NCBI RefSeq assembly: GCF_000333955.1
Contig: NZ_CAPS01000124.1
Span: forward strand, 1-64,000
Length of the DNA: 64,000 nt
Direction: 5' to 3'
Origin: Rhodococcus sp. AW25M09
GTDB taxonomy: Bacteria; Actinomycetota; Actinomycetes; Mycobacteriales; Mycobacteriaceae
Shown here: piece by piece, positions 29,105-64,000 of the stretch
Layout: each line of letters opens with the position of its first letter
How positions within the stretch are numbered: position 1 is the stretch's first letter
Program-made: the position numbers and the translations under genes
The notes under the pieces: generated by a model
Seen by the model: the letters and a program-made list of their open reading frames with translations, nothing else
Database searches by the model: none
What the model was told of the DNA's origin: nothing

Positions 29105-29527
29105 CTACTTTTCGGCGAGACCCAAGGCCGCTGAAAGATATTCACGCGAGTCGCGAAACGTCTGCGCCACGCCGCGTCCCGCCACGGCTCCGTACCGACT
29201 GATCTGATCGTCATCGAGAAGGTCGAGCACAGTGCTGGAATCCGCATGCATCCAACCGCCGTCTCGCGCCAATTCGTGGGCGCGTTTGCCCTGAAGCGCT
29301 GAAATTCCCTCGACCCTGATTCCATTCGGATCGGTCGACGCTGCGATGTAGTAAGCCTTCTTGCCGGGATAACCGGCCTTGACCTTCGCGCGCAACCGCA
29401 AGACTGCATCGACCGCATCATCGATGGCAGATGAATGCTCGTCGGAGCCCGATTCGGCAGCGGAGACTCGCGCAATCTCAGCATCGAGTCGAGCAAGCAA
29501 GGTGGCGAGGTATTCGAGATCGCTCAT
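29105..29527 (-). CDS. hypothetical protein
   Basis: A 140-residue soluble protein starting MSDLEYLATLLARLDAEIARV. The N-terminal third looks like an amphipathic helical hairpin. The rest contains KAYYIAASTDPNGIRVEGI and QGKRAHELARDGGW. No membrane segment or known catalytic motif is seen. I do not recognise the family. It lies behind a tiny membrane protein gene on the same strand (80 bp gap), so they may be co-transcribed. Confidence 0.55.
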   Translation of the reverse strand: MSDLEYLATLLARLDAEIARVSAAESGSDEHSSAIDDAVDAVLRLRAKVKAGYPGKKAYYIAASTDPNGIRVEGISALQGKRAHELARDGGWMHADSSTVLDLLDDDQISRYGAVAGRGVAQTFRDSREYLSAALGLAEK

Positions 29528-29606
29528 CAACTCATGATGCCCTACGACAGTGACATCCTGAACCAGCACGCGGCCGTCGTTGAATGCCCCATCAGCACCA
29601 ACGTTC

Positions 29607-61776: not shown

Positions 61777-62451
61777 ATGAAGACATACATCATCGGAGCT
61801 GCAGGCGGCATCGGCTCCAGACTGAGCACCATCCTCACCGCTCGCGGTGACGCCGTCTCCGGAATGATCCGCAACCCCGATCACCGTGAGCGGGTTGAAT
61901 CAACCGGCGCAACAGCCGTTTTCGGCGACCTCATCGACAACGATGTCGCAACGCTCGCAACGGCGTTCGCCGGCCACGACGCCGTCGTCTTCAGTGCAGG
62001 CGCACACGGCACCGGCATGGACAAGACAACCCTGATCGACGGAAAAGGCCTCGAGAAGGCAGCCGACGCAGCGCGCAGCGCAGGCGTGGAGCGATTCGTG
62101 CTGGTCTCGGCGTTCCCCGAATCGGGTCGCAGCCAAGAGCCGTCCGAGGGATTCGAGCACTACATGGCGACCAAGAAGTCGGCCGACGTCTACCTGACCC
62201 ACACCGATCTGGACTGGCTCATCGTCCGGCCGGGAGTGCTTCTCGACGAGCCAGGCGACGGCACCGTCACCGCGGGACTGGCCATCGAGCACGCTGAGGT
62301 ACGCCGCGACAACGTCGCAGCGTTCATAGCGGCAGCATTGGCCGAACCATCACTGACCCGAACGATCGTCGAACTCACCGACGGTACAACGCCTGTCGCC
62401 GATGCGGTTCGCCAGGTCATCGACGGCTCCGGAGTACGACCCACTGCCTGA
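61777..62451 (+). CDS. NAD(P)-binding atypical SDR
   Basis: A 224-residue NmrA/YwnB-like protein. The cofactor loop is YIIGAAGGIGSRL; DWLIVRPGVLLDEPGDG is typical of the family. There is no classical YxxxK. ATG 61777 follows GAGGAGAG. Such proteins reduce quinones or sense redox state; no function is assigned. Confidence 0.82.
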   Translation: MKTYIIGAAGGIGSRLSTILTARGDAVSGMIRNPDHRERVESTGATAVFGDLIDNDVATLATAFAGHDAVVFSAGAHGTGMDKTTLIDGKGLEKAADAARSAGVERFVLVSAFPESGRSQEPSEGFEHYMATKKSADVYLTHTDLDWLIVRPGVLLDEPGDGTVTAGLAIEHAEVRRDNVAAFIAAALAEPSLTRTIVELTDGTTPVADAVRQVIDGSGVRPTA

Positions 62452-62492: not shown

Positions 62493-63204
62493 TTACCTCA
62501 TTTCGGAGGGATCTGCTTCCGATGCCTCGGCCTCAGCAGGTTCGGCATCGGGCGCGGTGGGGTGAGCGGGCAGATAGATCAGAGTGAGGACGGCAGCAAC
62601 CGCGGTTACTGCTCCGGCGACCATGCAACCGACCGCCAGACCGTCGATGAAGCTCGCTTGCGCGGCGGGAGCCAATCGTGCACCCGCTTCGGCCCCTGCG
62701 CTACCGAACAACTCTCCCGCCTTCTGGGCCGCAGTCAATGCTGCACCCAGCGACTCGCGTGCAGGTTCGCGTAGCGGTTCGGGTACGGCATCGAAGTCCA
62801 GGTGATCTCGGTAGACCGACAGGGCGACCGACCCGATCACTGCTACACCCAGGGTCCCGCCCAGCTCTCGAGTTGCGTCGTTGACCGCCGAACCCATATC
62901 TGCCTTGTCCGGCGACACCACACCCATGATCGCTTCCGTCGCGGGCGTACTTGTTCAGTCCGATACCTGCACCCAGTAGCACCATCTGACCGACGATGGT
63001 CCAGTAGCTGCTGCCGTCCGAGAGAGTGGACGCCCACCCGAACGCCGCAGTCAGTGACAACAGACTCAGTGCGACAACGACTTTCGAGCCGATTGCTACG
63101 GCCAGCCGGGTTCCGACGAGGGCAGCCACTGCAATCGACCCGGCTACGGGCAACATGCGTAGCCCTGTTTCCAGTGCGCCGTACCCGCGGACGAATTGGA
63201 AATA
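62493..63204 (-). pseudogene. truncated, frameshifted DHA2 (EmrB/QacA) transporter
   Basis: Only the C-terminal part remains. YFQFVRGYGALETGLRMLPVAGS to VLLGAGIGLNKYA is in one frame, then from about 62944 the sequence continues in another frame as ATEAIMGVVSPDKADMGSAVNDATRELGG to the stop at 62493. A small indel broke the frame. The N-terminal ten or so spans are missing: the 5' end stops a few bases from the terminator at 63212-63237. It was probably cut off by insertion of the element to the right. Confidence 0.85.
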
Positions 63205-63211
63205 ACAGCAA

Positions 63212-63237
63212 GCCCGCACCCCTGGTCGGGTGCGGGC
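63212..63237 (-). terminator. terminator of the right-edge small genes
   Basis: GCCCGCACCC (63212-63221) pairs perfectly with GGGTGCGGGC (63228-63237) over a 6-base loop, followed on the minus strand by TTGCTGTTATTT. It ends the 63764-63250 transcript. Confidence 0.8.
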
Positions 63238-63249
63238 AACGTAGGCCGA

Positions 63250-63420
63250 TCAGAGCTTGACGGCAGCCTTGGAGATCGCCTTGCCTGCAGCAACGTCACG
63301 CAGCCACTGAGGCACCTCGTCCCCATCACGTTCGCGCATCGCGATCGACGCGCGAGCCGCCGCAGCCGCGACCTGCGGGCGCGGCACCTTTGCGGCCTTG
63401 CGCTGTTCGGTGGTAGTCAT
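63250..63420 (-). CDS. 56-residue basic protein
   Basis: MTTTEQRKAAKVPRPQVAAA, then a charged middle and a VAAGKAISKAAVKL tail. The ATG overlaps the upstream gene stop (ATGA), so it is translationally coupled. Ala/Lys-rich and soluble; no known family. Small size and partner suggest a phage or integrated-element gene. Confidence 0.6.
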   Translation of the reverse strand: MTTTEQRKAAKVPRPQVAAAAARASIAMRERDGDEVPQWLRDVAAGKAISKAAVKL

Positions 63421-63764
63421 GGCAGACCCTCCTGCTCGTTCTTTCCATCAGTGTCCTCGTCATCAGACGAACGCGCCAGCCCCAAGGCAGTGCGATCGGC
63501 GACCACCTTGAGAACAGCCTTCTCCGTCGTGGTCATCAGCGGCGAATCAGTCACCGCGGCGTAGATGTCCCAGCCGAGCCCGGCCTCGTCGTCATCGTCA
63601 CTGACCGTGTGATCGAGGCACCAGGTTATGCGTTGCCACGCCTGGGCGCGCTTGTCGGCCACGGTGCGCTGTCGCACGGTAAGAGCCACCCCGACGACGG
63701 CGAGCACACCGACGATCAGAGTCACCCATGCTTGGGCTGGGATTGCCTTGGTTGTTCCTCCCAC
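63417..63764 (-). CDS. small one-span membrane protein, phage-like
   Basis: A 115-residue protein: one hydrophobic span (AWVTLIVGVLAVVGVALTV, residues 12-30), then a charged cytoplasmic part and an acidic tail (SSDDEDTDGKNEQE). Small one-span proteins next to tiny basic proteins are common near phage lysis or late genes, but no definite homolog is recognised. GTG 63764 start. Confidence 0.55.
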   Translation of the reverse strand: MGGTTKAIPAQAWVTLIVGVLAVVGVALTVRQRTVADKRAQAWQRITWCLDHTVSDDDDEAGLGWDIYAAVTDSPLMTTTEKAVLKVVADRTALGLARSSDDEDTDGKNEQEGLP

Positions 63765-63890
63765 AGTCGATCAGGCCGGGAGTACGAGGGGCCTTAGAGG
63801 TGCGGCCGACACGCTGCGGTCAACGTACTGCGCAGGTCCGACACGACACTGCGAACTCCGAACGACCACTGCACCTCCTGCTCGTGGCGA

Positions 63891-64000
63891 TCAGCAGACT
63901 TCTCGATCATCGAACCCGGCCGGTAGGTCACGGTGTTCGCGGACCTCGACAAGGGCGCGGCGCACGGTCGATAACAGTCCGTCCACGTCCACGCCACCAG
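63891..64000 (-). CDS. partial CDS at the window edge
   Basis: A frame entering from the right edge encodes DVDGLLSTVRRALVEVREHRDLPAGFDDREVC and stops at 63891. Composition looks coding. The frame continues past 64000, so the N-terminus is not visible. Shorter alternative starts downstream (ATG 63910, GTG near 63875) give only tiny frames. It belongs to the same minus-strand group as the small genes. Confidence 0.35.
   Translation of the reverse strand, partial: GGVDVDGLLSTVRRALVEVREHRDLPAGFDDREVC

Follow-up and report, generated by a model that had tools for sequence, protein, structure and literature searches.

A decaying gene pair and a transporter remnant beside a tRNA-Thr attachment site in Rhodococcus sp. 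AW25M09

The transporter remnant and the small genes beside it

The window analysed here is a stretch of 64,000 nucleotides, bases 1–64000 of contig C43 (65,081 bp) from a 5.64-Mb genome of 166 contigs. Close to its right end, the last intact gene before the junction described below encodes an epimerase-like NAD(P)-binding protein (61777–62451, plus strand; Pfam NAD_binding_10), which is accessory in the genus, with close matches in 4 of 36 other genomes. It is followed on the minus strand by a transporter pseudogene (62493–63207), delimited by tblastn with P0001, an intact 536-residue homologue from the relative G002 (the G002 protein is 100% identical to a transporter of Rhodococcus sp. Leaf247). 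We take the gene to belong to the DHA2 family (MFS drug:H+ antiporter 2). The remnant covers residues from about 294 to the C terminus of a protein of about 536 residues: residues 294–398 of P0001 align to 63207–62887 in a first frame and residues 377–521 to 62957–62523 in a second, placing a frameshift somewhere within about 62,887–62,957, where the two reading frames overlap. The match begins at residue 294–295, leaving the first ~294 residues missing, and so both the truncation and the internal frameshift reported in the initial annotation are borne out. Of the two pieces, the upstream one alone matches Pfam MFS_1, weakly and below the cut-off of that family (E 0.0011), and the window copy lacks the single open frame of about 500 residues that marks a functional transporter.

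Intact counterparts are common. Essentially full-length homologues (aligned from residue 60 or lower to 420 or higher) stand at 66 of 71 related loci, and none of the 71 has the small genes described below in its vicinity (E 1e-4). A search for the missing half, proposed at the outset, was unproductive: P0001 has 25 matches in the source genome, of which just the two in the window are close (74% and 64% identity). The remaining 23 lie at 23–38%, and no orphan N-terminal half of similar identity is among them.

On the far side of the junction, and on the same strand, lie two small protein genes with homologues at many loci of the genus: p115 (63417–63764, 115 codons), whose product has a hydrophobic N-terminal segment, and p56 (63250–63420, 56 codons), the second of the pair, which overlaps the first by 4 bp. 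An alignment of 15 p115 sequences holds 18 invariant columns out of 123 and describes a protein of about 110 residues that begins with the hydrophobic segment. The window copy of p115 has lost its usual start codon, reading ATC at 63743–63741 where 35 of 36 other copies carry ATG, GTG or TTG (G023 supplies the sole exception, at L050, in one of its two copies). A ribosome-binding-like GGAGGA is still present upstream of this ATC, and the GTG at 63764 with which the listed frame starts precedes it. With the transporter frameshifted and the start codon of p115 gone, both sides of the junction are decaying. The closest match to the pair (80%) is in G030, where it likewise neighbours a tRNA-Thr half and p115 is interrupted by an in-frame stop. 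We rejected the open frame at 63794–64000 as a further gene, since the tested loci gave it no protein match and just 34 bp of it (63811–63844) match DNA, upstream of the G030 pair; it is probably not a gene.

Following p56 is an intrinsic-terminator-like hairpin on the minus strand (63212–63237) with a perfect 10-bp stem (63237–63212), in keeping with the initial claim that a terminator ends the small genes. A scan returned three terminator-like sites against a shuffle mean of 0.6, and the p56 stem has 10 pairs where the other two have 5 and 5. The transporter was described as cut about 8 bp from this terminator; the truncation and the strong terminator stand, and the distance becomes 4–7 bp between stem and transporter homology. 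We searched for the resulting junction (63207–63212) in 61 genomes including the source genome, scoring five candidate places in each. Transporter matches stop at 63204 and small-gene matches begin at 63212 or later; the source genome alone spans both sides, so the same arrangement in many species, named at the outset as the finding that would speak against an insertion boundary, is seen in none of the others. The G036 match begins at 63212 and therefore takes in the terminator. Inspection by eye shows a comparable G+C-rich hairpin after p56 in G036, G022 and G016, and none that is evident in G030 and G013. Around 63.1–64.3 kb, a search for a target duplication or terminal repeats gave just short chance-like repeats and the terminator stem itself. 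The junction is a real observation and looks unusual.

The tRNA-Thr attachment site and its element

Extending the contig rightwards for attachment repeats, as the initial annotation advised, locates the edge of an integrated element 104 bp beyond the window end. Here, the 45 bp at 64,104–64,148 of the contig (minus strand) repeat the 3′ half of tRNA-Thr(TGT) exactly, from the anticodon loop to the CCA; the intact tRNA-Thr(TGT) is on contig C164 of the same genome (C164:15886–15960). Tyrosine integrases usually leave such a duplicated tRNA 3′ half behind, and the direct repeat of a tRNA 3′ end, with the tRNA intact at one end, is the arrangement of an integrative and conjugative element (ICE), provided that the two ends belong to one element. 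The expectation of an element that starts at the junction and reaches past the window holds in part: an element does continue to the right, and its edge is this tRNA half (attR) and not the transporter/terminator junction. The p115/p56 pair and the broken transporter are outside the element, on its chromosomal side.

Adjoining the attR core is a conserved terminal arm of about 135 bp (contig 64,149–64,284, also outside the window). The same arm stands beside the second tRNA half in G011 (twice), G016, G025, G028 and G035, at 84–87% over 130–134 bp, and beside tRNA halves in G001, G003, G007, G010, G023, G024, G030 and G033, a recurrence that identifies C43:64104–64284 as the attR end of an ICE family. 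Of 37 genomes from the genus (the source genome included), 28 contain the tRNA-Thr 3′ half when up to two mismatches are allowed, and 15 of these 28 hold more than one copy. Among 14 tRNA stretches checked, 6 are halves with the arm, 7 are copies preceded by the tRNA 5′ half and 1, on contig C52 of G033, is a half with different upstream sequence; one half in G004 lacks the arm as well. We considered whether the DNA just left of the attachment site might be the end of an older integrated element: its likeness to the integrase-side ends covers only 24 bp (7 mismatches to C164), and by eye it resembles the tRNA terminators of other lineages too.

The integrase that had been looked for lies beside the intact tRNA-Thr on C164: a tyrosine integrase of 404 residues (L042:14507–15721; PF00589, E 2.9e-24). 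The same contig encodes a TrwC relaxase of 1346 residues (L042:1414–5454; PF08751, E 9e-80), and near the tRNA also an HTH regulator, a small HTH_17 (Xis-like) protein, ParA, a DUF2637 protein and a protein with a DnaB N-terminal domain. Integrases 96.5–98.8% identical to it adjoin tRNA-Thr in G011, G016, G017, G023, G025, G028 and G035; the G004 relative is 59% identical. In G016 both tRNA copies fall on one contig, 96.8 kb apart (C1:4845299–4942099), and a Pfam scan of 10 proteins from the element between them returned a TrwC relaxase, a TraG/TraD-type coupling protein, an AAA_10 (VirB4-like) ATPase and the integrase, together with an M23/transglycosylase/NlpC-P60 protein, a cutinase-like protein and a weak ParA-like match; three of the 10 had nothing in Pfam. 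The relaxase (on C164 and in G016) and the coupling protein (in G016) point to an ICE rather than a prophage, and the large elements of the tRNA-Thr family are probably self-transferring. The source genome shows just the ends, 15.9 kb on C164 and 0.93 kb on C43, which we infer to be the two ends of one ICE, although two tandem elements would give the same picture. Among the papers that literature searches listed, none describes this tRNA-Thr element in its title or the opening of its abstract.

Two further observations concern the relatives. About 40 kb of genes in the G016 element (L223–L227) look catabolic by eye. The corresponding tRNA copies of G023 and G011 are about 153 and 191 kb apart, and these intervals may include more than one element.

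The small genes had been called phage-like and the junction taken for the left end of a prophage running past the window. Small genes are indeed present with an integration site close by, and the integrase type of C164 occurs in 1803 phage records as well (45.8% identity for the best of the matches listed). However, the attachment site stands to the right of the small genes; p115 has no match in 50,697 phage records (E 0.01) and no confirmed relative in viral contigs; neither small gene has a PHROGs match at or below E 0.01; and no phage genes are thus seen in the reported stretch, whose transporter/terminator junction is not the element's edge. The integrase end, moreover, carries the TrwC relaxase, ParA and DUF2637 protein, and the related G016 element the coupling protein, which points to a conjugative element instead. 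We therefore rejected the prophage edge, which is highly improbable.

The chromosomal side of the tRNA-Thr site

Where relatives have hardly any or no DNA inserted, tRNA-Thr is usually next to a 154-codon gene without a Pfam match, found in the window at 29105–29569 (minus strand). The other flank encodes a ThrE-like exporter, assigned by eye. The empty site, with the order exporter flank, tRNA-Thr, 154-codon gene, takes about 0.1 kb in G008 and G029 and about 1–1.1 kb in G019 and G031; the 154-codon gene is 14 kb from the tRNA in G012 and 4 kb in G013, and it is absent within the 19.8 kb fetched from G021. From the position of this gene, the accessory stretch from 29600 through the window end to contig 64,103 (29.6–64.1 kb) is extra DNA lying before attR.

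Within this stretch, a block at 29.6–51.2 kb resembles inositol catabolism by eye and stands on the opposite side of the 154-codon gene in G008 (whole) and G013 (36.8–51.2 kb seen), and a block at 54.7–62.5 kb is common to the window and G024. The order of the 154-codon gene and the 29.6–51.2 kb block is swapped between the window (29105–51200) and L102, L117 and L122 (G008, G013). We considered the whole of 29.6–64.1 kb as a single island with attachment sites at both ends and discarded this, having found no tRNA-half relic near 29.6 kb, its far end.

Near tRNA-Thr in several genomes are genes whose products begin with MVRAATAADV or MRVVRAASAAEV (L105:964–1554, L046:2367–2723, L106:4230–4778, L104:10360–10953) and which by eye resemble AbiEi-type antitoxins. 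They suggest a second element class or a defence gene at the tRNA-Thr hot spot.

These flanks bear on whether the junction at 63,207–63,212 could be an assembly chimera. The genome is a 166-contig draft, the junction occurs in no other of the 61 genomes and the contig stops 1,081 bp past the window; yet the attachment region right of the junction fits the locus (over 979 bp, C43:64103–65081 is 95.6% identical to G033), as does the left side, whose neighbour gene recurs near tRNA-Thr in G008. The frameshift and the lost start codon are independent decay on the two sides, which suits an old junction. A chimera is thus quite unlikely.

The p115/p56 pair and the origin of the junction

Across Mycobacteriales, the p115/p56 pair turns up in conjugative elements, on plasmids and in chromosomes. 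We found p115 in 18 of 200 genomes drawn from the order, the source genome included (E 1e-5). Among 72,556 plasmid records 12 have it, eight of them from Rhodococcus, two from Mycobacterium and one each from Gordonia and Tsukamurella; in all four plasmids read, a gene of 54–56 codons directly follows it. In the G016 ICE the pair separates an Lsr2-like gene from the next one, and the same ICE-like context with an Lsr2-like gene recurs in G004, G010 and G017, the G004 copy being about 1 Mb from tRNA-Thr. Other copies are at chromosomal loci away from tRNA-Thr.

An alternative is that the pair makes up a small mobile cassette, one end of it being the terminator, and that its insertion interrupted the transporter. 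Presence and absence are clean at one ICE place, where the C164 element end lacks the pair at the exact spot that it occupies in G016 (C164 7429/7438 against about 700 bp in G016), and clean at a chromosomal locus too; the G036 match spans the pair through the terminator and ends there, and similar hairpins follow p56 in some other copies. Against this, neither terminal repeats nor a recombinase of its own are seen, sequence homology among most copies is limited to the two genes, and the other half of the transporter is absent both beyond the pair and elsewhere in the genome. We regard insertion of a cassette as unlikely.

Copies of p115 are themselves interrupted in places. Inserts that have their ends in common (CTTCACT...GTCC and GTCC...AGTGAACCTGG) break p115 at the identical base on contig C46 of the source genome, in G021 and in G024; the split sites are at L008:2872–5711 (C46), at L112:6165–17421 and, on L113, around 3300, 5509, 9222 and 17008. 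The G021 and G024 inserts each encode one protein with a tyrosine-recombinase domain (Pfam), which in G021 adjoins large proteins without a Pfam match. The C46 insert is 2.8 kb long and carries an Rv3651-like gene, with no recombinase in the two proteins scanned; at the C46-type chromosomal locus p115 is uninterrupted, to judge from abutting matches, in G008, G011, G012, G013, G023 and G033. The inserts look like a site-specific transposon family targeting p115, possibly akin to Tn554-type elements. The N-terminal half of p115 in the window (63635–63744) is 97% identical to that of the C46 copy (L008:5711–5820) over 110 bp and the other half 68%, the identity shifting at the insertion base. 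This disparity between halves suggests an exchange of p115 halves within the genome.

It is possible, though doubtful, that the pair is an undescribed two-gene mobile-element module of Mycobacteriales (for example toxin–antitoxin-like, or serving exclusion or defence), maintained with its 4-bp overlap in ICEs, plasmids and chromosomes, and that p115 doubles as a dedicated landing site for the transposons, the window copy being an unoccupied, decaying site stranded at an ICE hot spot. If so, tyrosine-recombinase transposons that cut p115 at the same base each time would shuffle halves between copies.

For the locus as a whole, we consider it likely that a tRNA-Thr hot spot for ICEs accounts for what is seen, a decaying pair and a piece of a transporter having been joined on its chromosomal side with the ICE just beyond the window. 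Repeated integration and loss of large ICEs at tRNA-Thr(TGT), a hot spot of the genus, would strand accessory pieces on that side. The pair may be a remnant of an earlier element that used this tRNA-Thr; as it also occurs away from the tRNA, it need not derive from any such element. The p115/p56 end would then have been joined to codon ~294 of the transporter through a deletion or illegitimate recombination, after which the transporter would have acquired its frameshift and p115 lost its start codon. The present ICE would have inserted at the tRNA, with attL and the integrase on C164 and the tRNA half at 64,104 as attR. The order of these events is one that we infer. The transporter/pair stretch is thus most likely a decaying leftover of element traffic at an integration hot spot, and the junction is a scar of an ordinary kind within it, not the edge of an element.

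For the window itself this is mainly a correction, from element edge to scar. More broadly, a vague junction gives way to a mapped attachment site, a tRNA-Thr hot spot in a Rhodococcus clade whose elements run to roughly 100 kb or more; with both ends, the integrase and the empty site defined, excision and transfer become directly testable. The locus illustrates that a cluster of small genes beside an integration site need not be phage, and it points to a two-gene pair of mobile elements that is widespread yet still without a name.

Compared with known systems, the C-terminal piece of the transporter is about 70–80% identical to full-length DHA2 homologues from Rhodococcus, Williamsia and Kitasatospora; these are intact, whereas the window copy, frameshifted and without its first ~294 residues, is a pseudogene. 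The element beyond the window is like ICEs of the tyrosine-integrase type that insert at tRNA 3′ ends, in its duplicated tRNA 3′ half with the tRNA intact at the integrase end, in its tyrosine integrase, small HTH (Xis-like) gene and relaxase and, as seen in G016, in its TraG-type coupling protein and AAA_10 (VirB4-like) ATPase; about 97 kb separate the tRNA copies in G016, and the present ICE, unlike those, is predicted from its genes. According to the account in PMC3218068, tRNA-Thr is a documented target of pSE211-type integrases, and actinobacterial AICEs transfer DNA through a single FtsK/SpoIIIE-like protein. The present family has the tRNA-Thr target in common with AICEs of the pSAM2/pSE211 type as described there and probably differs from them in its transfer genes, with TrwC and a TraG-type protein among the 10 G016 proteins scanned.
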